IMG/VR virus record: IMGVR_UViG_3300021475_000041
Coordinates: 1 to 31,557 of that record
Direction: 5' to 3' (one strand)
Origin: a virus
Length of the DNA: 31,557 nt
Every line of letters begins with the position of its first letter. The stretch's first letter is position 1. The position numbers and the translations under genes were made by a program. Shown piece after piece: positions 3,839-16,939 of the stretch. The notes below the pieces were generated by a model. The model was not told the origin of the DNA. It ran no database searches and saw only the letters and a list, made by a program, of their open reading frames with translations.

Positions 3839-4249
3839 GTGGCGAAGCCGTTCCGCCTGACGGCGCCAATCGTCCGTGAACATCCAATCCAGAAGCAGAT
3901 CGCCGACGTCCTCCGCATCGAGATCGCGCCGGCCGGAAAGGTCAGCCGTGCTGGCGTTGTTTGGTGGTCGATCGACCACGCAAATTATGCCGGCGAAGTG
4001 CCAGGGGTCCGGATCGGTCGCGGGATCATCGCCGGCATCCCCGATACCTTCGTGCTCTATCGCGGTATCGCGCACCTGATCGAGATCAAAGCGGAGGACG
4101 GCTCGCTATCCGTCGCGCAGCAATCGGTCGCCGCCGCCGTGCTTGCATCCGGCGGTCGCGTCGGCGTCGCCCGCGATGCGACCGAGACGCTTGCTTGCAT
4201 CGATCAATGGCAGATCCCGCGCAACCGGCGCGTCAGGGAGGCGGCATGA
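3839..4249 (+). CDS. VRR-NUC domain nuclease
   Basis: The protein has 136 residues and a GTG start two bases after the Cro-like stop. It has the signature of the VRR-NUC (PD-(D/E)XK) fold: G-I-P-D near residues 66-69 with the metal-binding Asp69, E-I-K at 82-84 with acidic and Lys catalytic residues, then a Gln pair (94-95) in a S-x-x-Q-Q segment, and a Gly-rich strand with G-R-V-G-V-A. Stand-alone VRR-NUC proteins in phages are structure-selective or nicking nucleases used in replication and recombination. It could serve as the nuclease partner missing from the Bet operon. Confidence 0.78.
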   Translation: MAKPFRLTAPIVREHPIQKQIADVLRIEIAPAGKVSRAGVVWWSIDHANYAGEVPGVRIGRGIIAGIPDTFVLYRGIAHLIEIKAEDGSLSVAQQSVAAAVLASGGRVGVARDATETLACIDQWQIPRNRRVREAA

Positions 4250-4250
4250 G

Positions 4251-4895
4251 ATGAGCGGTATGCGCTGGTCAAAATTCGTCTGGAAGGATTGGACCTCGGA
4301 CGCCGCGCTCCGGTCTTGCTCGCTCGCCGCACGCGGCTTGTGGATGGAGCTATTGTGCCTCTGCCACGAGGGCGAACCGCGCGGCTATCTGACGATCGGC
4401 GGACGCGCGCCGAGCGTCGGCGAGATCGCGAGACTGGTCGGTGCGCACCACCATGTCGTTGCGAAGCTGCTCGACGAACTGGAACGTCGCGGCGTGTTCT
4501 CACGCACCGAGTTAGGTCAGGTTTACTCCCGGCGTATCGTGCGAGACGAAGCGAAGTGGCACGCGAGTAGCGAGTGGGGTCACCGTGGGGGTAATCCGCA
4601 GCTAAAGCGTGGCGGATCAAAGACTAACGGCGCCGCAGGGGTTAACCCCAACGATAAGGCTAGCCTTATTCCAGAATCTAGACTCCAGAATCAGACTCTA
4701 GAATCCCCCTTAAAGTCCCCCAGCGGCGGCAGCGAGCAGGCCCCCTCCCCAACCCCTCACCCCGCAAGCGGGGGAGGGGCTAAGCGCGATCTTATCAACG
4801 CCGTTAAGGGCGCAGCCGACGCGGCCGCACCTGTGCCGCTGGAGGCGGTCCGCTGCCGACCCTTTCGCATCATCGCAGGGAGAGCCGCAGGATGA
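4251..4895 (+). CDS. replication-initiator-like protein with winged-helix N-terminus
   Basis: The product has 214 residues. The start at 4251 lies two bases after the nuclease stop; an earlier frame start would overlap it. The N-terminal 110 residues resemble a widespread alphaproteobacterial phage protein: W-S-K-F-V-W-K-D-W-T-S-D-A-A-L-R, then L-A-A-R-G-L-W-M-E-L-L, G-Y-L-T-I-G-G and a helix-turn-helix with V-A-K-L-L-D-E-L-E-R-R-G-V-F. This arrangement recalls phage replication initiators and helicase loaders. The C-terminal half is disordered and contains a DNA palindrome (4742-4779) read as P-S-P-T-P-H-P-A-S-G-G-G. It overlaps the next gene by four bases. Confidence 0.6.
   Translation: MSGMRWSKFVWKDWTSDAALRSCSLAARGLWMELLCLCHEGEPRGYLTIGGRAPSVGEIARLVGAHHHVVAKLLDELERRGVFSRTELGQVYSRRIVRDEAKWHASSEWGHRGGNPQLKRGGSKTNGAAGVNPNDKASLIPESRLQNQTLESPLKSPSGGSEQAPSPTPHPASGGGAKRDLINAVKGAADAAAPVPLEAVRCRPFRIIAGRAAG
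4742..4779. repeat. REP-like GC palindrome inside a coding region
   Basis: The element has a left arm at 4753-4765 (CCCCTCACCCCGC) and a right arm at 4768-4779 (GCGGGGGAGGGG), separated by AA, and is preceded by a partial copy of the left arm at 4742-4750. It looks like the short palindromic repeats scattered between genes in alphaproteobacterial chromosomes, here sitting in frame near the 3' end of a phage gene. One copy only was seen in this window. Confidence 0.6.
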
Positions 4896-5560
4896 ATCGC
4901 GCCGAATGGATGGCGACGCTCGCGCCGCTGATCCGCCCACGCGCCCCGCTACCCGCCGCCACGCAACTCGGAAAGCTGCTGCCGTTCCTGACCGATCTTC
5001 CTGACCACGCTTTCTGCGAGGCGTCGCTCGCGACCGCCGCGCCGAGACTGCCGCGCTCGCCGTCGCTCGGTCAGATACGCGAAGCGCTGAACGCCTATCT
5101 GCGCACGCTCGACGGACCGCCGGACCGCGCCGGCGCCGATAGCGAGACCATGCGCGAGCGGCAACGGCTCGCCGAGCGCGACGCGTTCCTGGCGCAAAAC
5201 TGGGACGATCCGGCCGGCATCCGCGAGCGCATCCGGACGTGCAACGGACAGCCGGCATTCCTGCGGTTGCTTGCAGCGCTGGTGCACCGGCACGCGCCGC
5301 AACACCTGGGGCTGCTACCGCCGGCCGCGATCGCGTCGGTCGATGAGCCGGCGCCCGAGCCGGGGCGCTTCGTCGCGCCGGCGCCGCGTCCGGCGTATTT
5401 CACGCCGGAGCAGCTGCGAGCCGTGGGAGGGGGAAGATATGGCCGATCGACCGCCGCGCTATCCGCGCCAGGGGCCCAGCCTGTCGATACCGTCGCCGCC
5501 GACGCCGTGGAGACGGACGGCACCGATACCGGCACCGGCGTTTATCCCGAGCGTGACTGA
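4892..5560 (+). CDS. hypothetical phage replication-region protein, 222 aa
   Basis: Starts with an ATGA overlap on the stop of the initiator-like gene, so the two are probably translated together. Residues 1-135 look helical: M-N-R-A-E-W-M-A-T-L, a hydrophobic L-P-F-L-T-D-L-P segment, and S-L-G-Q-I-R-E-A-L-N-A-Y-L. The rest is rich in Pro, Ala and Gly and probably disordered. The pairing with a winged-helix initiator suggests a helicase-loader or replisome-accessory role, by analogy only; I see no Walker motif or other catalytic signature. Confidence 0.5.
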   Translation: MNRAEWMATLAPLIRPRAPLPAATQLGKLLPFLTDLPDHAFCEASLATAAPRLPRSPSLGQIREALNAYLRTLDGPPDRAGADSETMRERQRLAERDAFLAQNWDDPAGIRERIRTCNGQPAFLRLLAALVHRHAPQHLGLLPPAAIASVDEPAPEPGRFVAPAPRPAYFTPEQLRAVGGGRYGRSTAALSAPGAQPVDTVAADAVETDGTDTGTGVYPERD

Positions 5561-5621
5561 CCGCCGCAAGCCCGGGTGTGGAGTCTGCCGGCGCGTCCGC
5601 GCTTGGATCCTCCGGCAATGA
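5553..5621 (+). CDS. possible 22-residue CxxC microprotein
   Basis: A GTG-started frame overlaps the preceding stop by eight bases and ends in an ATGA overlap with the next gene. It encodes V-T-D-R-R-K-P-G-C-G-V-C-R-R-V-R and ends W-I-L-R-Q. Start and stop both mesh with neighbours, and the C-x-x-C pair in a basic peptide is suggestive of metal binding. It may simply bridge translation between neighbours. Confidence 0.3.
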   Translation: MTDRRKPGCGVCRRVRAWILRQ

Positions 5622-5809
5622 GCGCGGCAAACGGTGACCGCGATCCTACTCTCGCGGCGCGGGAGATCGAGCTAGACCGGACGCTCGACGCGATCGCGCG
5701 CGAGCTACCGCCGCTCACCATCCACCAGCGGATCATCCTGGCGCGCGAGATCGACGCATTCGCCGATCGTCTCCGTCGCGGCCGTGGCCGGACAACTGGT
5801 GATGGCTGA
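5618..5809 (+). CDS. hypothetical protein, 63 aa
   Basis: The start at 5618 is preferred over an upstream ATG at 5576 because it overlaps the small CxxC frame by four bases and follows the chain of coupled starts seen throughout this operon. The product is mostly helical and charged: A-A-R-E-I-E-L-D-R-T-L-D-A-I-A and L-A-R-E-I-D-A-F-A-D-R-L. No domain recognised. Its stop overlaps the next start by eight bases. Confidence 0.5.
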   Translation: MSAANGDRDPTLAAREIELDRTLDAIARELPPLTIHQRIILAREIDAFADRLRRGRGRTTGDG

Positions 5810-6356
5810 ACCGTCCGCGCTTTACCGCCAGCACTTCGATGTCGAGCCGCCGCGTGTGGACGCCGGCGCGTTCCGCCAGGGCTGGCGCGTCCGCTCGCGG
5901 CTCGACGTCCTGCTCGATGAGGGGGCGGTCGGAAACGAGGCCTATGAGGCGGCGCGGCTGTTCCGGCGCGCCTGGGAGATCGCGTTCAGCGAGCGGACGC
6001 CGGCCATGCTGATGTCGTTCAGCGCGCGCTCGGTCGGTCGCGCCGGCGCCGGTCCGGTCAACCGGCTTGCGGCGGTCTCGTGGTTGCGGCGGATCGCCGC
6101 CGCGCTCGGTCCGTTCGATTGCCGGCTGCTGGAGCAATGCGTGGTGCTCGATCTCGCCTGGACGGCAATCGCCCGGCAGCATCAGGTCGCGGACACCACG
6201 GCGCGGCGCTGGACGATCGCCGCGCTCCGGCGGCTCGGCGAGCTATCGGCGGCGGATCGGCCGGCGCGCCAGCCGGACGCGGCGCCGGCGCCGGCCGGCG
6301 ACCGGGGCGCGGCAACCGAGCGGCGGACCGCTCGACGCCGCGTAGCGGCTTCCTAG
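5802..6356 (+). CDS. sigma-region-4-like HTH protein, candidate late regulator
   Basis: The protein has 184 residues from the ATG at 5802; a GTG at 5784 would add six residues. The first half is helical (Y-E-A-A-R-L-F-R-R-A-W-E-I-A-F). Near residues 115-150 lies a segment like sigma-70 region 4: V-V-L-D-L-A-W-T-A-I-A-R-Q-H, then T-A-R-R-W-T-I-A-A-L-R-R-L. The C-terminal 35 residues are Arg/Ala/Pro-rich and disordered. Phage genes of this type at the end of an early operon are often activators or antiterminators of late genes; that role is inferred from the fold pattern and position only. Confidence 0.5.
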   Translation: MAEPSALYRQHFDVEPPRVDAGAFRQGWRVRSRLDVLLDEGAVGNEAYEAARLFRRAWEIAFSERTPAMLMSFSARSVGRAGAGPVNRLAAVSWLRRIAAALGPFDCRLLEQCVVLDLAWTAIARQHQVADTTARRWTIAALRRLGELSAADRPARQPDAAPAPAGDRGAATERRTARRRVAAS

Positions 6357-6439
6357 CCGGTTCTAGAGGGGGGTCCAGATCGGGACTGGTAGCGGCGGCG
6401 TGGGGTCAGGCGACGCGCCGGCCGGCTCGGAGGGGTGCC

Positions 6440-6814
6440 ATGCGGCGGCGGCGATACGGCGACGTGACGCTCGATCTCCGCAACGGCTGGCTGATCGCCG
6501 GCGCGGGCCGGGTCAACGTCCGGCCGGCGGTCGCTCGGTTGCTCGACGCGTTGATCGCCGGCAGGGGCCAGACCCAGACCGCCGAGACGCTTCGCGCGGC
6601 GATGCGCAAGTCGCCGCAGCATCCGCCGGTCTCGAAAGAAAATCTGCGGGTGGGCGTGGTTGACTTGCGGGCGGCGCTGGCGAAGGCCGGAGCGATCACC
6701 TGGGTCGAGGGGCGCGTCGGCTACGGCTGGCGGCTCGATACCGGAGCGCAGGCCGGACGCCGGCCAGGGGGAGTCCTGACCGACGCCAGCAACGACGGAG
6801 GGTCCCCCGCGTGA
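6440..6814 (+). CDS. orphan OmpR/PhoB-type winged-helix DNA-binding protein
   Basis: A 124-residue protein started at the ATG after a clear GGAGG (6429-6433). Almost the whole length is one effector domain of the Trans_reg_C type: an N-terminal beta sheet (V-T-L-D-L-R-N-G-W-L-I), L-L-D-A-L-I-A-G-R-G-Q, the recognition-helix region with K-E-N-L-R-V-G-V-V-D-L-R-A-A-L, and the closing hairpin with V-E-G-R-V-G-Y-G-W-R-L. No receiver or sensor domain is attached, so it is not a normal two-component regulator. In a phage it would regulate transcription, perhaps of the operons starting downstream of the terminator at 7087. Confidence 0.72.
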   Translation: MRRRRYGDVTLDLRNGWLIAGAGRVNVRPAVARLLDALIAGRGQTQTAETLRAAMRKSPQHPPVSKENLRVGVVDLRAALAKAGAITWVEGRVGYGWRLDTGAQAGRRPGGVLTDASNDGGSPA

Positions 6815-7110
6815 CCATTCCGTTCGGTCGGTGGACGCGGAAAGCCAATGCACGCGGGGGAGGTGCAACCTCACCCCCAGGGATCTCGGTCGCCGGCGAA
6901 CCGTGCGCCCGATTCGTCCGATTCGCCGAGTCGCGTTTCACGTGGAACACAACGCGAACCCAACTAGCGGTTGCTGCACGCGCCGAGTTGGGTCTATCAA
7001 TTCGTCATCGTCGCGAGCGGTGCGCGCGGTTATCCTCCCGCGTATCGAGCGACGGTGCCTCGGATAAGCGACCGCGACCTCACTTCGGCCGGTCCCAGCC
7101 CCTCGAATAA
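6811..7110 (+). CDS. doubtful ORF over the parS-containing region
   Basis: A GTG frame overlaps the winged-helix stop (GTGA) and has GGAGGG nine bases upstream, so translation is possible. Against it, the 99-residue product is Arg-rich with no domain, it contains the palindromic parS-like site, and its stop codon falls inside the loop of the terminator at 7087-7130. I think the region is mainly regulatory or non-coding, with at most a short coupled peptide. Confidence 0.25.
   Translation: MTIPFGRWTRKANARGGGATSPPGISVAGEPCARFVRFAESRFTWNTTRTQLAVAARAELGLSIRHRRERCARLSSRVSSDGASDKRPRPHFGRSQPLE
6934..6949. promoter_or_regulatory. parS-like ParB-binding site
   Basis: On the minus strand the sixteen bases read TGTTCCACGTGAAACG, which matches the bacterial chromosomal parS sequence TGTTCCACGTGAAACA at fifteen of sixteen positions, including the whole CACGTG core. 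It lies in the gap between the early operon and the accessory block. It could recruit host ParB, or be the target of a phage partition protein; the ParB-like protein at 7482 lacks a visible HTH. Confidence 0.65.
6958..6993. repeat. 8-bp inverted repeat with long loop
   Basis: ACCCAACT (6958-6965) and AGTTGGGT (6986-6993) form a perfect stem around a 20-base loop just downstream of the parS-like site. There is no T-run after it, so it is not a terminator. It may be a protein site or RNA structure; function unknown. Confidence 0.4.
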
Positions 7111-7130
7111 CGTGGGCCGGCCGGTTTTTT
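7087..7130 (+). terminator. intrinsic terminator after the early operon
   Basis: GGCCGG-T-CCCA (7087-7097) pairs with TGGGCCGGCC (7113-7122) with one bulged T, followed by GG and six T residues (7125-7130). This closes the rightward early transcript before the gene at 7144. Confidence 0.75.
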
Positions 7131-7143
7131 CTTATCGGGAGCA

Positions 7144-7491
7144 ATGCCGGACCAACTGACGCGCGGCGCCGTGGTGCACTACGCCGAGCAATCGCTCATC
7201 GTCTGGACGCACAAGCCTGACGGCATTGCGCTCGGTATAGCGATCAGACCGCAGACCGGTCCGCGTCATCGTTCGCACGTTCCCATTTCCCCGACTGCTT
7301 GCCTGCCGCTCGGCTTGCGTCCGCGCGCCTCGATCGTCGCGACCGCCGAGCCGATGATCGCGATCCACCAGCCGCCGCGCGTGCTCGGTCTCGCGCCGGC
7401 AACGCTCCTGGCAGAGATCGCCGATACGATCCGCCGCGCGCACATCGCGAACCGCTTCGAGGTTGCGATGACCGGAGCGATATGGGCGTGA
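7144..7491 (+). CDS. hypothetical protein, 115 aa
   Basis: First gene after the terminator, with GGGAG six bases before the ATG. It starts M-P-D-Q-L-T-R-G-A-V-V-H-Y and looks like a small beta-rich N-terminal half followed by helices (A-T-L-L-A-E-I-A-D-T-I-R-R-A-H-I-A). The end overlaps the ParB-like gene by ten bases, so the two are likely co-translated. I do not recognise the family; the early R-G-A-V-V-H segment recalls SH3-like small proteins but is not enough to assign one. Confidence 0.5.
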   Translation: MPDQLTRGAVVHYAEQSLIVWTHKPDGIALGIAIRPQTGPRHRSHVPISPTACLPLGLRPRASIVATAEPMIAIHQPPRVLGLAPATLLAEIADTIRRAHIANRFEVAMTGAIWA

Positions 7492-8075
7492 CCGCTCGGC
7501 GAGCGGCGAAGACATCGCCGGCGCCGACGATCCAGTGGCCGGCCGATCGCGTCGAGCGCTGGTCGATCGAACGATTGATCCCGTATGCGCGCAACGCGCG
7601 GACCCACTCGGATGCGCAGATCGCGCAGATCGCCGCGTCGATCCGCGAATGGGGCTGGACCATGCCGGTGCTGGTCGATGGCGACGGCACGTTGATCGCC
7701 GGCCACGGTCGCGTGCTCGCGGCGCGGCAACTCGGTATCGCCGAGATTCCGACGATGACCGCGCGCGGCTGGAGCGAGTCGCAGATCAAGGCATACCGGC
7801 TCGCCGACAATCAACTCGCGACGCTCTCGGGTTGGGACGATCAGCTACTCGGCGTCGAGCTTGCCGAGCTTCGCGCGGTCGGCGCCAACCTCGAACTGAT
7901 CGGCTTCGCGACCGGCGACGTCGATAAGCTCATCAACGGACCGCAGGCGCCGAGTCAGTTTGGCGCCTATGACGAGTCGATCCCGGTCGAGCACACCTGT
8001 CCTAAGTGCGGATTCCGCTGGTCGGGCGGATCGAGCGGACCGGCGGGCGAAGGCGGCGATGATCCGTCCGAATAG
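7482..8075 (+). CDS. ParB/Srx-fold N-terminal domain protein with zinc ribbon
   Basis: The protein has 197 residues, with its start at 7482 inside the upstream gene's end. Residues 25-95 are a ParB N-terminal domain: L-I-P-Y-A-R-N-A-R-T-H-S, I-R-E-W-G-W-T-M-P-V-L-V-D, and A-G-H-G-R-V-L-A-A-R-Q-L-G, the position of the nucleotide-binding G-E-R-R-x-x-A motif. No ParB-type helix-turn-helix follows; instead a C-x-x-C pair (H-T-C-P-K-C-G-F-R-W) near residues 171-177 suggests a half zinc ribbon. In phages such proteins often lie beside DNA methyltransferases and act in DNA modification or nicking rather than partition. It overlaps the methyltransferase by 17 bases. Confidence 0.78.
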   Translation: MGVTARRAAKTSPAPTIQWPADRVERWSIERLIPYARNARTHSDAQIAQIAASIREWGWTMPVLVDGDGTLIAGHGRVLAARQLGIAEIPTMTARGWSESQIKAYRLADNQLATLSGWDDQLLGVELAELRAVGANLELIGFATGDVDKLINGPQAPSQFGAYDESIPVEHTCPKCGFRWSGGSSGPAGEGGDDPSE

Positions 8076-9342
8076 CAAGCCGCCGTATTGCATACCGTCG
8101 ATGGTCGAGATCGCGGCGATTCCGTTCAACGGATTGCGCGCGGTCTCGACGTTCTCCGGTTGCGGCGGTTCGTCGCTCGGCTATCGCATGGCAGGCTTCA
8201 AGGTCGCCTGGGCGAACGAATTCATCCCGGCCGCGCGCGATACCTACCGCGCTAACTTCCCCGATACGCGGATCGATGAGCGCGACATCCGGCAAGTCGA
8301 GCCTGCGGAGATACTCGACGCGGCCGGCGTGCTCGCCGGCGAGCTTGATCTATTGGACGGCTCGCCGCCGTGCGCGAGCTTTTCGATGGCCGGCAAACGG
8401 CAGCGCCATTGGGGACAGGTCAAGCGCTACTCGGATGGCAAGCAGCGCACTGACGATCTATTCTTCCAGTTCGTGCGGCTGCTGCGCGGTCTCCAGCCGC
8501 GCGTGTTCGTCGCTGAGAACGTCGCCGGTCTCGTTAAGGGCGTGGGCAAAGGGTTCTTTCTCGATATCCTGGCGGCGTTGAAAGACTGCGGCTACCGCGT
8601 CGAGGCGCGGCTACTCGATGCGCAATGGCTCGGCGTTCCGCAAGCGCGGCAACGGCTGTTCTTTGTCGGGACGCGGCTCGATCTCGCGATCGCTCCGGCG
8701 TTTCCGACGCCGCTCGCATACCGCTACAGCGTCCGCGACGCGCTGCCGTGGATCGGCGCGATCGAGCACGCTAACGGGTTCAACGGTCACGCTATGGAGC
8801 CGGTCGGCGTGCCGGCGCGAACCGTCCAGGCGGGCCGCTCGCTCAAGGTCCGCGTCAGCACCGCGCATCGGTCGCGCTCGATCGACGAACCGGCGCCGAC
8901 CGTGCAGACGCACAATAACCGGCACACCCGGAGCGAGATGGCGATCGAGACCGAAGCGGATATGTCGCGCTATGCGGTCGGTCGCGAGCTAGACAAGCTC
9001 GGACAGGGCCAGCAATCGGCGCGATACTTTCAGCTTACGCGCGCGTCGCTCGACGCGCCGGCCGGGACGATTACCGCAGAGGGCGGCAATCCGAGCCTCG
9101 CGTCGGTCGCGCATCCGACCGAGTGCCGCAAGTTTTCGATTGCCGAGCTACGCGCGATCTGCGGCTTTCCGGCAGACTTCGTGCTGACCGGAACCTACGC
9201 GCAGCAATGGGAACGGCTCGGTCGCGCGGTGCCGCCGCCGATGATGGCGGCGATCGCGGCGACGATCCGCGATCGCGTGCTAGACCCCAAACGCGAAAAG
9301 GGCGCGGATCGCTCCGCGCCCCTTCGTCGAGCAGCCGCGTGA
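8059..9342 (+). CDS. C5-cytosine DNA methyltransferase with Arg in motif X; candidate DNA carboxymethyltransferase
   Basis: The protein has 427 residues. The catalytic core is complete: motif I T-F-S-G-C-G-G-S-S-L-G (31-41), motif II with Glu54, motif IV G-S-P-P-C-A-S-F-S with nucleophile Cys105, motif VI E-N-V (153-155), and motif VIII Q-A-R-Q-R (195-199). The target-recognition region follows (about 250-345). Motif X, normally Q-x-G-N-x-V, reads R-L-G-R-A-V, with Arg389 (codon 9223-9225) in place of the Asn that contacts the cofactor. Changing this Asn to a basic residue in M.MpeI is reported to let the enzyme use carboxy-SAM and form 5-carboxymethylcytosine. With CmoA-like and AsnB-like genes nearby, the same activity is proposed here; ordinary 5-methylation is the alternative. 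Confidence 0.85.
   Translation: MIRPNSKPPYCIPSMVEIAAIPFNGLRAVSTFSGCGGSSLGYRMAGFKVAWANEFIPAARDTYRANFPDTRIDERDIRQVEPAEILDAAGVLAGELDLLDGSPPCASFSMAGKRQRHWGQVKRYSDGKQRTDDLFFQFVRLLRGLQPRVFVAENVAGLVKGVGKGFFLDILAALKDCGYRVEARLLDAQWLGVPQARQRLFFVGTRLDLAIAPAFPTPLAYRYSVRDALPWIGAIEHANGFNGHAMEPVGVPARTVQAGRSLKVRVSTAHRSRSIDEPAPTVQTHNNRHTRSEMAIETEADMSRYAVGRELDKLGQGQQSARYFQLTRASLDAPAGTITAEGGNPSLASVAHPTECRKFSIAELRAICGFPADFVLTGTYAQQWERLGRAVPPPMMAAIAATIRDRVLDPKREKGADRSAPLRRAAA
9300..9321 (-). terminator. intrinsic terminator for the minus-strand lipoprotein gene
   Basis: A perfect nine-base stem GGGCGCGGA/TCCGCGCCC with loop TCGC. Read on the minus strand it is followed by TTTTC. It sits within the last codons of the methyltransferase gene, so one sequence serves both the protein's basic tail and the terminator of the converging gene. 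Confidence 0.7.
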
Positions 9343-9350
9343 TGGTCGGC

Positions 9351-9689
9351 TTACCAGCAGCCGAACCGGCAGACGACAACCGGATAGACCGGCGTCACAT
9401 AGACCGGATGGCTCGCCGCGTAGCCGGCGGCAGCGCCCGCCGCCGCCGCGCCGAGCACCGCGAGAAAGCCGGTCGCGACTTCGGCGGCTTGCTGGTTATG
9501 CTCGGCGTTCACCTGGGCCTGGAGCGGCGCGACTTGCTCGCAAGCCGCTTGAATACCCTTCGCGCAGCCGGCGCGAACGCCGTCGAGATACGGCTGAGAC
9601 GGCGCCGCGCAGGCGGTTACGGCGAGCAGCGTCGCGAGCGTCGCCAATTTGAGCGAGCGCGCGCGGTTGGATAGGATCGAGATTGTCAT
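9351..9689 (-). CDS. putative outer-membrane or periplasmic lipoprotein (moron)
   Basis: A 112-residue minus-strand gene with AAGGA nine bases before its start. Residues 1-28 are a lipoprotein signal: a basic N-region (R-A-R-S-L-K), a hydrophobic stretch L-A-T-L-L-A-V, and a lipobox ending T-A-C at Cys27. The mature part has four further Cys and a Gly/Ala-rich segment (A-A-A-G-A-A-A-G-Y) near residues 81-90 that may insert in a membrane. It runs against its neighbours and ends three bases before its own terminator region. Possible roles are lysogenic conversion, surface exclusion or a lysis lipoprotein; none can be chosen from sequence. Confidence 0.65.
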   Translation of the reverse strand: MTISILSNRARSLKLATLATLLAVTACAAPSQPYLDGVRAGCAKGIQAACEQVAPLQAQVNAEHNQQAAEVATGFLAVLGAAAAGAAAGYAASHPVYVTPVYPVVVCRFGCW

Positions 9690-9722
9690 CGGGCGGGGTC
9701 CTTCCGCTTGGGTGATAGAGGG

Positions 9723-9754
9723 ACGGCGCCGACCGTTCGCGCGGTCGGCGCCGT
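9723..9754. terminator. 13-bp perfect hairpin between two minus-strand genes
   Basis: ACGGCGCCGACCG (9723-9735) pairs exactly with CGGTCGGCGCCGT (9742-9754) around loop TTCGCG. There is no T-run on either side, so termination would be imperfect. It may separate the DUF3489 gene from the lipoprotein gene or stabilise an RNA end. Confidence 0.5.
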
Positions 9755-9770
9755 TATTCGCTTTCGTCGA

Positions 9771-10406
9771 TCAAGCGGCGATATACCGCGTCTTGCCGTC
9801 CTCCCCCTTCGTCTTGGTGACCGAGCCGGCCGGCAGCAGCTTGATGACCCGCGAGATCGTCGCGCCGGCGGCTTGCCAGCCGAGTTTCTTGCAGACCTCC
9901 GCCTCGGTCGCGCCGTTCGGCCGGCGCATCATGTCGGCGATCGTCGCCTTGCTACCGGTCATCGGCTTCGTCTCGGCTTGCTTGCTCGCCTTCGCCGGCT
10001 TCGCCGCCTTCGGCGCCTTCGGCAACGCGGCGAGCGTCGCCTCTAGCTCGCGCCGCGCCTTGGCGAGCTTGTTCCGCTCGGACTGGAGTCCCGTCGCCCT
10101 CCCCTTCGCGCGCAGCGCTTCGATTTGGGCCTTGAGATCGTCCGCCTTGGCGGCGGCGGCGCCGAGCGTCGCGGGAGACGGTCCGCTCGCCGGCTTCGCC
10201 TTCGCGGCTTCCTTCCGCGCGGCTTCGTTCATCGGAAAGAGCTTCGCCAGTCCAGCCGGACCGGCCTTGCCCGTGCGAGCCGTCTTGGCGGCGCGCTTGG
10301 CTTCGTTCTTCGCGATGTTCTTGTCCATCGCCTTGCGGACAGCCGCCGTCTTGGCAGACATGCCATTGACCTTGCGGGCGGCGGACTTCAGTGTCTTGGT
10401 TGCCAT
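9771..10406 (-). CDS. Lys/Ala-rich DUF3489 protein
   Basis: A 211-residue minus-strand gene. Residues 1-140 are very rich in Lys and Ala, with a likely coiled coil at about 85-130 (D-D-L-K-A-Q-I-E-A-L-R and L-A-K-A-R-R-E-L-E-A-T-L). The C-terminal 65 residues match DUF3489, a small winged-helix-like domain: I-A-D-M-M-R-R-P-N-G-A-T-E-A-E-V, then L-G-W-Q-A-A-G-A-T-I-S-R-V, ending with K-T-R-Y. Such proteins occur widely in alphaproteobacteria and their phages and probably bind DNA, in a histone-like or regulatory role. It lies opposite to the modification genes on each side. Confidence 0.7.
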   Translation of the reverse strand: MATKTLKSAARKVNGMSAKTAAVRKAMDKNIAKNEAKRAAKTARTGKAGPAGLAKLFPMNEAARKEAAKAKPASGPSPATLGAAAAKADDLKAQIEALRAKGRATGLQSERNKLAKARRELEATLAALPKAPKAAKPAKASKQAETKPMTGSKATIADMMRRPNGATEAEVCKKLGWQAAGATISRVIKLLPAGSVTKTKGEDGKTRYIAA

Positions 10407-10435
10407 TGCTTTAGTCTCCAGTGGGTTACGGTTCC

Positions 10436-10470
10436 GAGGCGCCGCGTCAACGGCGCCTCAATCGTTTTTT
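10436..10470 (+). terminator. intrinsic terminator upstream of the AsnB-like gene
   Basis: GAGGCGCCG (10436-10444) pairs perfectly with CGGCGCCTC (10451-10459), then AATCG and six T residues. It reads in the plus direction and would block transcripts coming through the minus-strand morons, which implies a separate promoter for 10512 onward within about 40 bases, or regulated read-through. Confidence 0.65.
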
Positions 10471-10511
10471 CGCGGGTATCCGCACCAACCTCCAGCGCAA
10501 TCGTGTGCGTT

Positions 10512-11876
10512 ATGTGCGGAATAATCGGCGGTTACGCCGCGTGGAGCTTTGACGTCGCCGCGCGGCTCGACTTGATCCGTCATCGCGGTCCGGACGGTTC
10601 CGGCGTCTGCACAATCGGTCCGGCGACGCACGGCCACGTCCGCCTGTCGCTGCTCGATCTCACGGACGCATCGGCGCAGCCGTTCCGCTACGGCGACGCG
10701 GTGCTGAGCTTCGTCGGCGAGATTTGGAATTACCGCGCGGTGCGCGCCGAGCTTGAAGCGCAGGGCGTCGCGTTCCGCACTACCGGCGATACCGAAGTGC
10801 TCGCCGCCGCGCTCGCGACCTGGGGCGACGCCGCGCTATCTCGGCTCGAAGGCATGTTCGCGTTCGCCTGGAGCACGCCCGATCGGCACATCCTTGTGCG
10901 CGACCGGTTCGGCAAGGTGCCGCTTTACGTCTCGCGGCGCGGCGGCGCGTTCGCCTGGGCCAGCGAGCGCAAGGGGCTGGGCCGTGAGTGGCCCGCAACC
11001 GCGCTGCCGCCAGGAACCCTCCTAGACCTCGCAACGGGGCAGGTCTCGGCGTGGTATGCGCTTCCGCGCACCGTCGCCGACGATCGTCCGTTGATCGAGG
11101 TCCTCGAGGCCGGCGTCCGCGCGCGGCTGGTCGCCGACGCGCCGCTCTGTTGCCTGATCTCCGGCGGTCTCGATAGCAGTCTCGTGCTGATGCTGGCGCG
11201 CCGGCACAAGCCGGATGTGGTCGCCTATACCGCCGTGCTCGATCAAGGATCGCTCGATCTGCGAGCGGCGCGCCGGCTCTGCCGCGAGCAACAGGTCAGA
11301 TTGATCGAGGTCCCGGTCCGCGCGCCCACGTCGCAAAGTCTCGCCGACGCGGCGCGCGTGATCGAGATCAACAGCAAGGCGCAGATCGAGATTGCGGCGC
11401 TGTGCATACCGCTCGCGCGCGCCATCGCCGGCGACGGCTTCAAGGCGTGCCTGTCCGGCGAAGCGGCCGATGAGTTGTTCGGCGGCTACGGCTCGCTGTG
11501 CATCAAGGGTTCCAAGGCCGACGATGCCGGCTGGCGCGCGCTGCGCATCGCGCAACTCGAAAAGATGGCGCGCGGTAACTTCGTCCGCTGCAACAAGGCA
11601 TTCATGGCGGCTGGCGTCGAGTGCCGGTTGCCCTTCATGGAGCGTGCGCTAGTCGAGCGCGTATTGAGTATGCCGAAGCGTGCCTGTCCGCCAGGAAAGC
11701 GCGCGCTAAAGCAAGCCGCCGCCGGCGTGATACCGCCGTGGATCATCAGCCGTCCGAAAGACACCTTCCAGGGCGCGAGCGGTATGGCGGACGCAGCGGC
11801 GCGCGCGGTCGCCTATCCGGCGGCGTTTTACCGCGCCGAGATCATGACGCAGTTCGGATCATCCGCGAGAGACTGA
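10512..11876 (+). CDS. asparagine-synthetase-like glutamine amidotransferase; candidate base-amidating enzyme
   Basis: A 454-residue protein whose ATG is fixed by the required Cys2 after Met removal. Residues 1-185 are a class II glutaminase domain: M-C-G-I-I-G-G, H-R-G-P-D (24-28), R-L-S-L-L-D (44-49), G-E-I-W-N-Y (69-74), G-D-T-E-V (92-96). Residues 195-454 are the ATP-dependent synthetase domain with the pyrophosphatase loop S-G-G-L-D-S-S (217-223) and S-G-E-A-A-D-E-L-F-G-G-Y (315-326). It is about 100 residues shorter than E. coli AsnB. The oxyanion-hole Asn before G-E-I is Val68, so glutamine use may be weakened. Next to the CmoA-like gene it may amidate a carboxymethyl group rather than aspartate. 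Confidence 0.85.
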   Translation: MCGIIGGYAAWSFDVAARLDLIRHRGPDGSGVCTIGPATHGHVRLSLLDLTDASAQPFRYGDAVLSFVGEIWNYRAVRAELEAQGVAFRTTGDTEVLAAALATWGDAALSRLEGMFAFAWSTPDRHILVRDRFGKVPLYVSRRGGAFAWASERKGLGREWPATALPPGTLLDLATGQVSAWYALPRTVADDRPLIEVLEAGVRARLVADAPLCCLISGGLDSSLVLMLARRHKPDVVAYTAVLDQGSLDLRAARRLCREQQVRLIEVPVRAPTSQSLADAARVIEINSKAQIEIAALCIPLARAIAGDGFKACLSGEAADELFGGYGSLCIKGSKADDAGWRALRIAQLEKMARGNFVRCNKAFMAAGVECRLPFMERALVERVLSMPKRACPPGKRALKQAAAGVIPPWIISRPKDTFQGASGMADAAARAVAYPAAFYRAEIMTQFGSSARD

Positions 11877-11878
11877 GC

Positions 11879-12577
11879 ATGGACGCCGCGCCGAGCTTCG
11901 ATATTCCGAGCAATTGGACCTTCGAGGACAAGGGTGTTGCCGATGGCTTCGATCGGCACGTCCGCGAACAGCTACCGTGGTATGAGTTGGCGACCGGCGC
12001 AGTCGCGCACGTCGCGCGGCATTACATTCCGCTCGATGGCGTGGTCTATGATCTCGGCGCGGCGACCGGCAATATCGGGCGCGCGCTCGCGCCGACGCTG
12101 CAAGTGCGCAAAGCGATGCTGATATCGGTCGAGCCGTCCGCCGAGATGGCAGCGGCGTATCGCGGACCGCAGCGCAATAACCTGGAGATCGAGCGCGCCG
12201 AGCGCGTCAAGTTTCAACCGTTCGATGTCGCGGTCGCATTCCTGACGCTGATGTTCGTCCCCGTCGCCGAGCGCGCGCCGTTGCTCGATCGCCTATTCGA
12301 CGCGATGCGTCCCGGCGGCGTGCTGATCGTATTCGATAAGTGCGAGGCGGACAGCGGCTATGCGGGCACTGTGCTGTGGCGCCTGGCGCTAGCAGGAAAG
12401 CTCGCAACCGGCGTCGATCCTGCCGAGATCGTCGCTAAAGAATTGTCGCTGTCCGGCGTGCAGCGTCCGCTATCGCGCGGCGTGTTGCCGGCGCACGCGC
12501 TCGAATTCTTCCGCTTCGGCGAATTCGCCGGCTGGCTGATCGAAAAGGAAATCCCAAGATGTCGCCAGGACCCATGA
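11879..12577 (+). CDS. CmoA-like SAM enzyme; candidate carboxy-SAM synthase
   Basis: The protein has 232 residues and begins two bases after the AsnB-like stop. It follows CmoA along its whole length: W-T-F-E (13-16), V-A-D-G-F-D-R-H-V near 20-28, P-W-Y for P-G-Y, the SAM-binding V-Y-D-L-G-A-A-T-G-N (56-65), F-L-T-L-M-F-V, R-P-G-G-V-L-I-V-F-D-K (144-154), and the CmoA-specific region V-D-P-A-E-I (179-184). CmoA turns SAM plus prephenate into carboxy-SAM. In my by-eye alignment the E. coli Arg199 that binds the carboxylate falls at Glu188, beside Lys187, so cofactor synthesis is not assured. No CmoB partner is present, which argues against the usual tRNA role. Confidence 0.75.
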   Translation: MDAAPSFDIPSNWTFEDKGVADGFDRHVREQLPWYELATGAVAHVARHYIPLDGVVYDLGAATGNIGRALAPTLQVRKAMLISVEPSAEMAAAYRGPQRNNLEIERAERVKFQPFDVAVAFLTLMFVPVAERAPLLDRLFDAMRPGGVLIVFDKCEADSGYAGTVLWRLALAGKLATGVDPAEIVAKELSLSGVQRPLSRGVLPAHALEFFRFGEFAGWLIEKEIPRCRQDP

Positions 12578-13029
12578 CCACCGCCCATCGCGGCGGCGAT
12601 CTCTATGCAACGCGCGCCGGCTCGCCGGCGATCCCGAGCGCACCGCCGCGCGTCGATCCGCCGTTCGTCGCACCGCCGCCGGCGCACCAGGGACGCGGCA
12701 GTGCCGCGCTCGCGCTCGCCGATCGTATCGCCGCGCAGTCTCGCGCCGCGACCGTCGCGCGCGAGGACGTCACGCCCGAGCTTGAACCGGACAACCCATC
12801 GCTCACGACCGAAGAACCCGGCGAGGACTTCACCGACAATGAGGACGTGACCGACGAACTGGAGCCGTTCGATCCGTCGATCGAAAGCGCGCTGCGCGTG
12901 ACCGTAACCGGCGATGAATCGTCCGTGACGATTACCGCCGAGGAAGGCGAGACGATCGTCGGCGTGACCGAGGAAGACGACGGGAACATCGAGGTCCTGG
13001 TCGAAGATACCTCCGACGTGTTGCTGTAG
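12574..13029 (+). CDS. acidic hypothetical protein
   Basis: The product has 151 residues. The start at 12574 is favoured over 12559 because AGGA lies six bases before it and it makes an ATGA overlap with the CmoA-like stop. Residues 1-70 are Ala/Pro/Arg-rich and probably flexible; residues 75-151 are strongly acidic with Glu/Asp clusters (E-E-P-G-E-D-F-T-D-N-E-D) and alternate beta-type segments (V-T-V-T, V-T-I-T). Its coupling to the modification genes and position just before the head genes leave two ideas open: a DNA-mimic or accessory of the modification system, or a head scaffold or decoration component. No family recognised. Confidence 0.55.
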   Translation: MTTAHRGGDLYATRAGSPAIPSAPPRVDPPFVAPPPAHQGRGSAALALADRIAAQSRAATVAREDVTPELEPDNPSLTTEEPGEDFTDNEDVTDELEPFDPSIESALRVTVTGDESSVTITAEEGETIVGVTEEDDGNIEVLVEDTSDVLL

Positions 13030-13040
13030 GAGCGCGCGCC

Positions 13041-13676
13041 ATGCCGTTCGATGCCATGCCACCACGGATCACCAAGCAAGCCGAGATCAGTGCGGTCGAT
13101 GAGAACCGGTCGGCGCGCTTCGTCGCGTCGAGCAATCGGATCGACCGCTACGGCGACATAATCGAGCAGGAATGGGACCTCGCCGACTTCTGGCGCAATC
13201 CGGTGTTCCTGTGGTCGCACAATTCCTGGGGGATGCCGATCGGCTGGGTCCGCGAATTCGAGCCGGACCGAGACCGGACCGAGACCGTCGCGCGCGTCGA
13301 GTTCGCGCCCGAGGGCCACGATGAGTTCGTCGATAAGCTCGTGCGCGCCGTCAATCTGCGGCTGATCCGCGCGGTCTCGGTCGGCTTCGTGCCGATCGAG
13401 ATGGAGGACCGGCTCGACGAACGGGGGCGATGGGACGGCTATCGTTTCATGCGCAACCAACTGATCGAGCTATCGCTCTGCACCATTCCAGCCAATCCCG
13501 ACGCGCTCGGTCTCGCGCGCTCGATCGATGGCTCTCCGAAATTCCTTCGGCGCGTATTCGCCGATGGAGTGTTCCGCGCAACCGCCGATTCGCACTCTGC
13601 TCCGAAGCCTGCGAGCAAGTTTGTGGTGCGCGATCAAGCGGTCGCCGATCTCGCGCGGTTCAAGACTACGGCTTGA
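13041..13676 (+). CDS. HK97-family prohead protease
   Basis: A 211-residue serine protease that matures the procapsid by cleaving the scaffold part of the capsid protein. AGGAG precedes the ATG. The N-terminal domain shows R-Y-G-D-I-I-E (36-42), N-P-V-F-L-W-S-H with the likely catalytic His60, then R-A-V-S-V-G-F with the likely nucleophile Ser113, and L-I-E-L-S-L-C-T-I-P-A-N-P (141-153), whose Glu143 is a candidate for the acid. It lies directly before the capsid gene, the normal order. The C-terminal 45 residues are variable and probably self-cleaved. Confidence 0.9.
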   Translation: MPFDAMPPRITKQAEISAVDENRSARFVASSNRIDRYGDIIEQEWDLADFWRNPVFLWSHNSWGMPIGWVREFEPDRDRTETVARVEFAPEGHDEFVDKLVRAVNLRLIRAVSVGFVPIEMEDRLDERGRWDGYRFMRNQLIELSLCTIPANPDALGLARSIDGSPKFLRRVFADGVFRATADSHSAPKPASKFVVRDQAVADLARFKTTA

Positions 13677-13716
13677 AATTGCCCGGTGTCTCGGGTCGCA
13701 CATTGAGGACCAACCC

Positions 13717-15150
13717 ATGACGACTCTCTCGCAGCGCATCGCGGCGTTGCAGACCGAGCGCGGCCAGATGGTTCGCGCTTATGAAACCGCGCTGCAGCCT
13801 GCACTCGACGAAAATCGCGATCTGAACGAAGCAGAGACCGCGACGGTCGGCGAAGCTCGGACGCGGCTCGATACGATTGACCAGCAGCTACGCCACTGGA
13901 CGCAAGCCGAGGCGACGCTCGCGCGCTCGGCTGAGCCGACGCCGGGTTACGTTCCCGGCAACCGTCCCGGCACCGCCGTGACGCTCTCGACGCAGCGCGA
14001 GCGTCCGGTCATTCAGATGGAGCGGCGCGACGCCTATCGAGGCGCCGACTTTACCCGGATGGCGATCGCGGTCGCGTGCGCGGGACAATGGAACGCGGCC
14101 GAGTATGCGCGGATGCGATGGGCCGATGATGAGTTAGGCGATCTCATCCATCGCAGCATGGCGATACAAATGCGTGCAGTGACCCCGCCGATGGCGACCA
14201 ACGACGGCCCAGGCGGTAGCGGCTTCATTACCCGGTTCGAGCGGCTCGCCGATGAGTTTATCGAGATGCTCCGACCGCTGCTGATCGTCGGTCGGATGCC
14301 GTCAATGCGCCGGCTGAATTTCGGTAACAATGGTCAGCTATTGATTCCGCGCCAGACCGCCGGCGTCTCCGGCGGATATGTCGGCGAAGGCAACTCTATC
14401 AGGGTCCAGCGTTTGGCATTCGCCCAGATGATCCTGACGCCGAGCAAGCTCGCGGTCATCGTGCCGCAGACGATGGAATTGCTCCGGCGATCCGATCCAC
14501 CGACCGAGCAATTGATCCGCGACGATATGCTCGCCGGCACGGCTCTGACTATCGATAGCTTTTTCTTTTCGACAACTGCCGCGAACGCCCAAGGTGCCAA
14601 TCCTGCCGGCATCCTGAACGGCGTCACGGTAAACGCGGACGGCGCGATCGTCGCCGATGCAACCGTGACCCAAGTAACCGCAGCGCTCAAGGCGATGATC
14701 CTGGCGCTGCGGATGCAGAACGTGCCGATGACCGCGCCGGTCTGGATCATGAACGCGCGGACCAAAGAATACCTGCGACTGCTGCGCACGGTGGCGACGG
14801 AAATATTCGCATTCAAGGCCGAGATCGATGCCGGCACGTTGCTCGGCTATCCGATCGTGGACTCGACCTCGATCGCGATTCCGTTCCCGCCGGGGACTGG
14901 ATTGAATACCGCCTATGCGTTGATTGACGCGTCGCAACTGATCTGGGCCGACGATATGGGCACGGTGATCGACGCGTCGCAGGAGGCGTCGGTGCAACTC
15001 GACGACGCGCCGGCGACACCACCGGGCGGCACGCCGCCGAATGTCTACAGCGCGTTTCAGAACGACATGGTGTTTATGCGCTTGCGGATGTCCCACTCGT
15101 GGGCGCGCCGGCACGATGTCGCCGTGACCTGGGCGCTGACCGAAGAATGA
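13717..15150 (+). CDS. HK97-family major capsid protein
   Basis: The protein has 477 residues; GAGGA precedes the ATG at 13717. Residues 1-75 form a coiled-coil delta (scaffold) region with heptad-like leucines. The rest has the HK97 fold pattern: G-F-I-T-R-F near 168 for the N-arm end, L-L-I-P-R-Q-T-A-G-V-S-G-G-Y-V-G-E-G for the E-loop and early strands, a long helix region with D-D-M-L-A-G-T-A, N-P-A-G-I-L-N-G, and W-I-M-N-A-R-T. The longer length than HK97 gp5 leaves room for an insertion. A terminator follows at once, as expected for a highly made protein. Confidence 0.92.
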   Translation: MTTLSQRIAALQTERGQMVRAYETALQPALDENRDLNEAETATVGEARTRLDTIDQQLRHWTQAEATLARSAEPTPGYVPGNRPGTAVTLSTQRERPVIQMERRDAYRGADFTRMAIAVACAGQWNAAEYARMRWADDELGDLIHRSMAIQMRAVTPPMATNDGPGGSGFITRFERLADEFIEMLRPLLIVGRMPSMRRLNFGNNGQLLIPRQTAGVSGGYVGEGNSIRVQRLAFAQMILTPSKLAVIVPQTMELLRRSDPPTEQLIRDDMLAGTALTIDSFFFSTTAANAQGANPAGILNGVTVNADGAIVADATVTQVTAALKAMILALRMQNVPMTAPVWIMNARTKEYLRLLRTVATEIFAFKAEIDAGTLLGYPIVDSTSIAIPFPPGTGLNTAYALIDASQLIWADDMGTVIDASQEASVQLDDAPATPPGGTPPNVYSAFQNDMVFMRLRMSHSWARRHDVAVTWALTEE

Positions 15151-15157
15151 GCGCAAC

Positions 15158-15194
15158 GGCGGGAGATCGGCGACGGTCTCTCGCCTTTTCTTTT
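15158..15194 (+). terminator. intrinsic terminator after the capsid gene
   Basis: GGCGGGAGA (15158-15166) pairs with TCTCTCGCC (15177-15185) with one G-T pair and a ten-base loop, followed by TTTTCTTTT. It would leave capsid mRNA more abundant than the portal and fibre transcripts. Confidence 0.75.
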
Positions 15195-15205
15195 GGGGGG
15201 ATGCC

Positions 15206-15487
15206 GTGACCGATTATCGCACCACCTGGGCGTTCCAGTATCGCGGCGAGATCCTCGATCTCGGCACGGTCATCGCGCCGGAGACCGAAGCCGACCACCG
15301 CGAGGTGCAACTCGGCTGGAATATCGGCAGCGTTGTGCCGGTCGATCCCAACGCGCCGATCGATCCGCCGCCGGCGATCGATCCGCCGGAGATCGATCCG
15401 CCAGAGAATGGGGAGAGTCCCGGCCATCCGATCGAGCCGATGACCAGCAACGATGCGCCGGTCCGCAGCGCGAGAGCCAAGCGCTAG
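15206..15487 (+). CDS. small Pro-rich protein with I-D-P-P repeats
   Basis: The product has 93 residues with a GTG start behind a G-rich ribosome site. Residues 1-45 look folded (T-T-W-A-F-Q-Y-R-G-E-I and H-R-E-V-Q-L-G-W-N-I-G). Residues 50-66 repeat I-D-P-P three times, matching a tandem DNA repeat built on GATCGATCCGCC (15358-15405). The tail is basic. Placed between capsid and portal and ending three bases before the portal start, it is probably a minor head component; no family recognised. Confidence 0.55.
   Translation: MTDYRTTWAFQYRGEILDLGTVIAPETEADHREVQLGWNIGSVVPVDPNAPIDPPPAIDPPEIDPPENGESPGHPIEPMTSNDAPVRSARAKR
15358..15405 (+). repeat. three direct repeats of GATCGATCCGCC-type unit
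   Basis: Three in-frame units of 18, 15 and 15 bases encode I-D-P-P-type steps within the small protein at 15206. Such repeats are prone to expansion and contraction by slippage. Confidence 0.6.
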
Positions 15488-15490
15488 ACA

Positions 15491-16939
15491 ATGGCGCTGC
15501 GCGACTTCATCACCCGCGTCGGGATGCGTCTCCGGCTGATTACGCGCAACGCGTGGCTGCCGACCGTGCCGCCGAGGGAATGGGGACATACGTGGTATCA
15601 GTCCGGCTATCCGTCGCCGAACACGATGCCGCCGCTGCTTACGTTCCCGGCGGTCTATACGTCGATCGATACCATCAGCAGCGACATCGCGCGGTTGCCG
15701 GTCAAGCATTACAAGATGGAGCAGGGCCAGCGCATCGAGGTCGAGAATTCCGCGCCGCTACGCGTGCTCGACAAGCCGAACGGCTACCAGACCCGCTTCG
15801 ATATGATGAAGCAATTCGTCGCGGCACAACTCTATCGCGGCAACAGCTACCTGTATGCGAAGCGCAACCGGCGTTATGAGATCGATGAGCTTCACGTGCT
15901 GTTCCCCGATAACGTCTATGCCTATCGCTCCGGCAGCGAAGTCTTCTATGAGGTTGGCGCGCAACCGCTCGCCGAGATCGACGTCCGGAAGATGCTGACG
16001 ACGCGTGAGTGTCTCCACCATCGCATGTTCACGCTCGCCGATCCGTTGATGGGTATCACGCCGCTGATCGCGGCGGCGCTCTCGACGTCGGCGGGGATGG
16101 CGATCATCCGGCAGTCCGAGCGGTTCTTTAACCAAATGGCGCGACCGTCCGGCGTATTGTCCACCGCCGGCCGGCTCGATCCGAAGAAAGCGCAGGACAT
16201 CAAGGATCGCTGGAACGCGGTCTATAAGGGCATCCAGAATAACGCCGGCGATGTCGCGGTCCTCGAGGAAGGGCTCGAATGGAAAGCCCTGACGATGACC
16301 TCGGTCGATGCGCAGTTGATCGAGCAGCTACGCTATACCGTGGAAGACGTCGCGCGGGTCTATCGGTTGCCGATCTTCATGCTCGGCGATCTGACGAAAG
16401 TCTCATACAATTCGTCGGAACAGCTTGTGCGGATTTACTACTCGGGCTGTCTGGTCGCGCACATGGTCGCGCTCGAAGACAGGTTCTCCCAATTCTTCGA
16501 TATGAACGGGCGCACCGAGTGGCTCGAATTCGATACCGATTACCTGTTCCGGACCGAGATGGTCGCGCGCATCGAAGCGCTCGCGAAGTCGGTGCAAGGC
16601 GGTATCCGCACGCCGAATGAGGCGCGCATCATCGAGGGTCTCAATCCGGTCTCCGGCGGCGATGTGATCTTCATGCAGCAACAGATGGCGCCGGTCGAGG
16701 TCCTCGCGACGCGCGCCGATCTAACCAGCAAGCCGCCGAGCGGTCCGGCGCCGACGCCGCAACCGGCCGCGCTACCGGCGCCGGAGCGCACCCCCGTAGC
16801 GGTGCCCTCAGACGCGCTACGCGACGCGTTGATGGGTGCCGTGTTCGCGGACCGGCCGGCGAGCCGGACGCTCCTAGCCCCTGTCGAGCGGCGAGCAACA
16901 AGGCGACTGATCCATGGACGGCGATCTCGCATTGCCTGA
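15491..16939 (+). CDS. HK97-family portal protein
   Basis: The portal protein, 482 residues, forms the dodecameric channel at the head vertex through which DNA is packaged. Family features run in order: V-Y-T-S-I-D-T-I-S-S-D-I-A-R-L-P (54-69), G-N-S-Y-L-Y (116-121), L-F-P-D-N-V near 137, the H-x-x-x-F-T-L-A-D-P-L-M-G-I-T-P-L segment near 178, P-S-G-V-L-S, Q-L-I-E-Q-L-R-Y-T-V-E-D-V-A-R-V-Y-R-L-P, and R-T-P-N-E-A-R near 373. The C-terminal 80 residues are Pro/Ala-rich. It follows capsid instead of preceding protease, the reverse of the common order, and no terminase lies upstream in the window. Confidence 0.92.
   Translation: MALRDFITRVGMRLRLITRNAWLPTVPPREWGHTWYQSGYPSPNTMPPLLTFPAVYTSIDTISSDIARLPVKHYKMEQGQRIEVENSAPLRVLDKPNGYQTRFDMMKQFVAAQLYRGNSYLYAKRNRRYEIDELHVLFPDNVYAYRSGSEVFYEVGAQPLAEIDVRKMLTTRECLHHRMFTLADPLMGITPLIAAALSTSAGMAIIRQSERFFNQMARPSGVLSTAGRLDPKKAQDIKDRWNAVYKGIQNNAGDVAVLEEGLEWKALTMTSVDAQLIEQLRYTVEDVARVYRLPIFMLGDLTKVSYNSSEQLVRIYYSGCLVAHMVALEDRFSQFFDMNGRTEWLEFDTDYLFRTEMVARIEALAKSVQGGIRTPNEARIIEGLNPVSGGDVIFMQQQMAPVEVLATRADLTSKPPSGPAPTPQPAALPAPERTPVAVPSDALRDALMGAVFADRPASRTLLAPVERRATRRLIHGRRSRIA

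Follow-up and report, generated by a model that had tools for sequence, protein, structure and literature searches.

A predicted CmoX/CmoY/CmoA cytosine hypermodification cassette with a glutaminase-type ligase in a tailed-phage fragment

A methyltransferase, ligase and CmoA-like gene cluster in a tailed phage

Does a cluster of genes for a C5-cytosine DNA methyltransferase, an AsnB-like amide ligase and a CmoA-like protein on a phage genome encode a single route to a hypermodified cytosine, and with which amine would such a route end? The question is raised by the linear IMG/VR virus record IMGVR_UViG_3300021475_000041, the whole of which (31,557 bases) was analysed and is referred to below as the window. 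Genes for RecT, capsid, portal, tail fibre and contractile sheath proteins identify it as a tailed-phage fragment, the capsid protein of which shares <28% identity with those of known phages among the matches listed. The region 7299-12577 encodes, in this order, a ParB-like protein, the C5-cytosine methyltransferase (CmoX), two minus-strand genes, the AsnB-like ligase (CmoY) and the CmoA-like protein (Table 1). A first-pass annotation had placed the genes for CmoX, CmoY and CmoA at 8059, 10512 and 11879 and had assigned them to these families, correctly in all three cases. It had not listed the ParB-like gene located just upstream of CmoX (7299-8075), which belongs to the module; its frame opens with TTG, with an internal ATG at 7482 as a plausible start, and a ParB-like homologue adjoins most CmoX loci.

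Table 1. Positions and predicted functions of genes and key codons in the cassette region of the window.
Feature	Position	Strand	Remarks
ParB-like gene	7299-8075	+	PF02195 weak, E=5.5e-4; PHROG 620 ParB-like, E=9e-50
CmoX, predicted DNA cytosine C5-carboxymethyltransferase	8059-9342	+	C5-methyltransferase with motif X Arg
CmoX catalytic Cys105 codon, SPPC motif	8371-8373	+	
CmoX Arg389 codon (CGC), equivalent to SpCmoX Arg350 and HhaI Asn304	9223-9225	+	
Small predicted lipoprotein, LAVTAC lipobox	9351-9689	-	Without family match
DUF3489 protein, Lys/Ala-rich N-terminus	9771-10406	-	PF11994, E=3.9e-8
CmoY, glutaminase type: predicted AsnB-like ATP-dependent amide ligase	10512-11876	+	
CmoY Val68 codon, site of the Gln-binding Asn (AsnB Asn74) in glutaminases	10713-10715	+	
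CmoY KAQIE motif, in place of the AsnB TTIR region	11376-11390	+	
Predicted CmoA-like carboxy-SAM synthase, divergent subclass	11879-12577	+	KELSLSGVQRP; Asp for Glu164; without Arg199

Relation to the published pathway

The pathway is already published and hence not new (PMC12783734). Yang et al. (Nat Commun, December 2025; PMC12783734) reported that CmoA of Synechococcus phage S-B43 makes carboxy-SAM, that its CmoX (SpCmoX; structure 8YF3) forms 5-carboxymethylcytosine at GC sites with Arg350 of motif X as the key residue, and that its CmoY, a homologue of AsnB, couples glycine to yield 5-glycylcarboxymethylcytosine. Wild-type SpCmoX with its Arg does not accept SAM, and the modification confers resistance to HhaI (PMC12783734). 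The same study recovered 5,615 candidate CmoX from viral sequence, many of them accompanied by CmoA, a ligase and a gene with a ParB domain (PF02195), and several ligase clusters with differing active sites; for the second cluster, which carries glutaminase domains, the authors suggested the use of glutamine-derived ammonia, and the enzyme was insoluble (PMC12783734). In the engineered M.MpeI variant N374K, replacement of the motif X Asn by a basic residue permits the use of carboxy-SAM (cited in PMC12783734); this is a laboratory mutant with Lys that acts at CG sites, whereas the window encodes a natural Arg beside its own CmoA. In the literature found, there was no mention of 5cxmC or phage CmoX outside PMC12783734, no member demonstrated to ligate ammonia to 5-carboxymethylcytosine, and no report of 5-carbamoylmethylcytosine in DNA. 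New in this analysis are the comparison of Arg- and Asn-bearing CmoX loci, a second methyltransferase lineage, and a sister pair of phages with and without the ligase.

S-B43 and the window share the three activities (predicted for the window), a CmoX with the motif X Arg and SPPC, a CmoA without Arg199 and a Glu in the acceptor motif of the ligase. They differ in CmoA subclass, in gene order (CmoA-CmoY-CmoX in S-B43; ParB-CmoX-(minus-strand genes)-CmoY-CmoA in the window) and in CmoY, which comprises 271 aa, lacks a glutaminase domain and uses glycine in S-B43, whereas that of the window comprises 454 aa and includes a glutaminase domain. Streptomyces phage TurkishDelight (NC_073473) encodes ParB, CmoX (55% identity), a glutaminase-type CmoY (40%) and CmoA consecutively as gp121-125, which probably represent the glutaminase cluster of PMC12783734; in contrast to the window, its CmoA is of another subclass (29% identity), its CmoY retains Asn74, and no minus-strand genes lie in between.

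We propose, as a reasonably likely reading, that the window encodes a tailed-phage cassette for cytosine hypermodification by CmoX, CmoY and CmoA, with 5-carbamoylmethylcytosine as the end product. The CmoA-like protein would form carboxy-SAM by carboxylating SAM, presumably by use of prephenate. CmoX would flip out a cytosine within a short motif, Cys105 attacking C6, and would transfer the carboxymethyl group to C5; Arg389 would hold the carboxylate and keep out SAM. CmoY would then adenylate the carboxylate of 5-carboxymethylcytosine and join it to glutamine-released ammonia, and the resulting 5-carbamoylmethylcytosine would protect the DNA from host nucleases. The published S-B43 biochemistry supports the first two steps and the principle of the ligase; by homology, the CmoA and CmoX reactions very likely proceed as in S-B43, and an anti-restriction role is suggested by the HhaI resistance of the published system. 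The first-pass annotation had drawn the same route from carboxy-SAM through 5-carboxymethylcytosine to an amide. Its observation is confirmed and its interpretation supported, both by the S-B43 biochemistry and by hallmarks of all three steps in the window; its amide step is set against a characterised CmoY that adds glycine, and the final amine is one that we infer.

The glutaminase-type ligase and its amine

Window CmoY combines a class II glutaminase domain (Cys directly after Met, R49, G75, D98) with an Asn_synthase domain (SGGLDSS), and its AlphaFold2 model (pLDDT 92) adopts the two-domain fold of AsnB, in agreement with the earlier assignment as an AsnB-like amidotransferase. Its best structural match, E. 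coli AsnB (1CT9), shares this fold together with Cys1, R49, G75, D98, SGGLDS, E348, D351 and K449, whereas window CmoY is ~100 residues shorter and carries KAQIE in place of TTIR, N in place of D384 and V in place of N74. An ordinary asparagine synthetase was rejected, as the acceptor motif TTIR is lost and the score against TIGR01536 (253.8 bits) is under the cut-off of 267.1. In an alignment of 58 glutaminase-type CmoY, which is not fully deduplicated, nearly all sequences read KAQ[I/V]E in the TTIR region, the variable residue being T in one, and the Q and E of this motif are present in 58/58. The acceptor-motif Glu is common to the glutaminase-type CmoY examined and to the glycine-using SpCmoY (KTHFE).

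Because window CmoY carries a glutaminase domain, a plain amide cap, i.e. 5-carbamoylmethylcytosine, is probable, and ammonia as the amine, judged from that domain alone, has a fairly good probability. Two findings speak against this reading: the sole characterised CmoY uses glycine, and the glutaminase site of the window, in which Cys1, R49, G75 and D98 are present, has Val68 in place of N74. Among the 58 aligned CmoY, Val occupies this column only in the window and in three relatives (L007, L093 and L011), which lie dispersed over the CmoY tree; the well-supported branches of this tree require at least two changes. In AsnB, Asn74 hydrogen-bonds Gln (PMC11296641), and its replacement makes the nitrogen source in the window phage less sure.

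CmoX and CmoA might act as described while CmoY joins another amine (glycine, an amino acid or a small amine), the glutaminase domain being vestigial or structural. Glycine addition by SpCmoY, the existence of several ligase clusters that differ in the active site (PMC12783734) and the Val at the Gln-binding position would all fit such an enzyme; however, Cys1, Arg49, Gly75 and Asp98, and indeed the whole glutaminase domain, are conserved in nearly all 58 CmoY, Glu76 is also kept in the window, and SpCmoY, which does use a free amine, lacks any glutaminase domain, all of which makes another amine unlikely. A related possibility, to which we assign a low probability, leaves the amide product unchanged and has window CmoY use free ammonia since Val68 cripples glutamine hydrolysis. 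The scattered recurrence of Val at a residue that contacts Gln in AsnB points in this direction, but the neighbouring Gly75 is intact, Cys1 is retained, and the AsnB-type hydroxyamidotransferase TsnB9 has Ser at the Asn74 position in the printed alignment, so that this position is not fixed. Glutamine-derived ammonia is the amine of the proposed scheme.

Gain and loss of the ligase

On the CmoX tree, window CmoX groups with its nearest relatives (up to 88% identity) in a clade of 14 rows, in which CmoY is found only in the window. No Asn_synthase domain was detected in the records of 22 CmoX/CmoA loci, including that of the sister phage L054, and a search for alternative ligases recovered Amidoligase_2 in 4/50 records, located near CmoA only in L115 and L116. 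In these record sets, another ligase as a substitute in close relatives lacking CmoY was rejected. Along window positions 3847-20483, L054 (34.6 kb) is for the most part collinear, at 76-86% identity, and it encodes a CmoX 87% identical to that of the window, and nothing in it matches the window CmoY gene. Within window positions 9336-11878 just a short DUF3489 stretch aligns with L054, and similarity returns at 11879, the ATG of CmoA. CmoY was gained cleanly in the window relative to L054. The closest relatives of window CmoY occur in L005, L004 and L093 (~70% identity), the CmoA proteins of which are just 51-54% identical to that of the window, and parsimony places ~26 changes in CmoY presence on the CmoX tree, a quick tree on which fragments can hide the gene. 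The ligase is modular.

Many close relatives, L054 among them, have CmoX and CmoA with no Asn_synthase-type gene in their records, which would accord with a CmoY that is inactive or irrelevant and with phage DNA that ends as plain 5-carboxymethylcytosine; yet the CmoY frame is intact, every ATP-site motif is kept, and the cleanly gained gene is followed after 2 bases by CmoA, on the same strand; we consider this outcome quite improbable. For the favoured amidating reading, the window and L054 constitute a natural pair with and without CmoY for testing what the cap does, and the window provides a fresh enzyme set for the predicted amidating branch.

The two minus-strand genes had been described in the first-pass annotation as morons between the methyltransferase and the other two genes. 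Their positions are as described, whereas the DUF3489 gene is a recurrent companion of the cassette: it was found in 33 loci (some representing the same contig), on the minus strand every time and near CmoX or CmoY and CmoA. A random moron was rejected for this gene, as it recurs on the minus strand wherever found. For the small lipoprotein-like gene, a homologue occupies the corresponding position in L055.

Motif X Arg and CmoA go together in two methyltransferase lineages

Window CmoX matches PF00145 (E=4.7e-54) and TIGR00675 (174.9 bits, cut-off 100.65), and the basic residue previously predicted in its cofactor site is Arg389 of motif X (GRAVPP), where Asn is usual. The best solved match is 8YF3 (E=4.6e-66; next match 1e-22), with Arg389 aligned to Arg350; the recognition region is unlike that of SpCmoX. 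Arg occupies the motif X column in 116/116 aligned CmoX rows (a few of them duplicates), which derive from loci fetched by CmoA or CmoY sequence and not by CmoX, and this Arg, the SPPC Cys and the cofactor residues F25/E47/F48/D69 are kept in all or nearly all of these rows.

Loci fetched with the CmoX sequence alone (n=88) served as a natural control, comprising 74 with Arg and 14 with Asn at motif X; as all scans used short exact peptide patterns, the locus sets are samples. The co-occurrence of motif X Arg methyltransferases with CmoA, which the first-pass annotation had put forward as a check, is borne out: CmoA is encoded beside CmoX in 72/74 Arg loci, the remaining two (L147 and L164) having the gene at a contig end, and in 0/14 Asn loci, 13 of which were parsed by script and one (L170) read by eye (Fisher p ~1e-13, a value inflated by relatedness). 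The linkage of the cassette genes is far beyond chance. The Asn rows are found at two places on the CmoX tree, which argues for two or more joint changes of this residue and CmoA.

A second lineage was recovered from CmoA-seeded loci (L117-L119), in which the sole methyltransferase is distant (23-27% identity), contains GSPCQ instead of SPPC, has the motif X Arg and adjoins CmoA. Searching with this SPC-type protein yielded a clade (L198-L211) that carries Arg and is located beside window-type CmoA wherever neighbouring sequence is present; L209 is without CmoA, and its record starts inside the gene. Among distinct, scored rows, CmoA accompanies 12/12 with Arg versus 0/58 Asn/Asp relatives. 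This lineage, which is outside the published SPPC filter, represents, as judged from sequence comparison, a second origin of the Asn-to-Arg solution. There is strong genomic support from both methyltransferase lineages that one residue marks carboxy-SAM users, and the motif X Arg would thus offer an easy criterion by which to find others. We lean slightly towards a scenario in which glutaminase-type CmoY form 5-carbamoylmethylcytosine, CmoX/CmoA phages acquire and lose the ligase as a mobile final step, and carboxymethyltransferases arose at least two times; if true, close relatives among these phages would differ only in the cap.

A divergent CmoA subclass

The CmoA-like protein of the window has TIGR00740 as its best NCBIfam match, with a score (57.1 bits) under the cut-off of 193.3, and the top six PDB fold matches of its AlphaFold2 model (pLDDT 87.5) are CmoA structures (4GEK, 1IM8, 4IWN), which upholds its earlier description as CmoA-like. 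It is homologous to CmoA and functionally linked to the cassette, and falls outside the tRNA-pathway equivalog. In agreement with the first-pass annotation, CmoB (PF08003) is unmatched across the record, a 31.6 kb linear fragment, and tRNA modification via the cmo5U pathway was rejected on this basis.

Tyr39, Asp62, Gly64 and Phe137 are invariant across 126 CmoA rows. In E. coli CmoA, Arg199 forms a salt bridge to the carboxylate, and a role of Glu164 is known from the same work (PMC3663124); in window CmoA, Glu occupies the Arg199 column and Asp replaces Glu164. The low score (57 versus 193 bits) and the missing Arg199 count against the proposed cassette, although SpCmoA, which is biochemically proven, likewise has Glu at this column in the alignment. 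Arg199 therefore does not define the phage enzymes, and its use as a test of carboxy-SAM synthases was dropped. The window subclass is characterized by KELSLxGVQRP and a near-invariant Arg after the helix, which, we speculate, takes over the carboxylate. Window-type CmoA and classical CmoA replace one another next to CmoX, with both together in 0/136 distinct loci, which argues for the same job. Its divergence, missing Arg199 and low score might suggest that the "CmoA" is some other methyltransferase and that CmoX is an ordinary enzyme forming 5-methylcytosine, with unrelated genes as neighbours. This reading is highly improbable given that motif X Arg and CmoA go together in two independent lineages of methyltransferases, that the top fold match is CmoA and that wild-type SpCmoX, which also bears Arg, refuses SAM (PMC12783734).

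Window-type CmoA is also encoded in L115 (IMGVR_UViG_3300007961_000333) and L116 (3300042816_000235), in which a C5-methyltransferase was not found. In L115 and L116 (4462-8690 in the latter), CmoA is located near ParB-like genes, Amidoligase_2 (PF12224) and a GGACT gene (PF06094), and the neighbourhood includes a ParB fused to an unassigned domain with an FGCG motif. These loci possibly represent another carboxy-SAM user with another amide ligase.

Genomic context

Matches to CmoX within bacterial assemblies are distant MAGs. CmoX and CmoA occur together on Verrucomicrobia and Gemmataceae MAG contigs (L128-L131), which would represent either prophages or phage contigs binned with bacteria. 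Downstream of the cassette in the window, a protease-like frame (13041-13676) overlaps the major capsid frame (13528-15150) by ~150 bases when the first start codon is called, and the true start of the major capsid protein is probably located further inside the latter frame.
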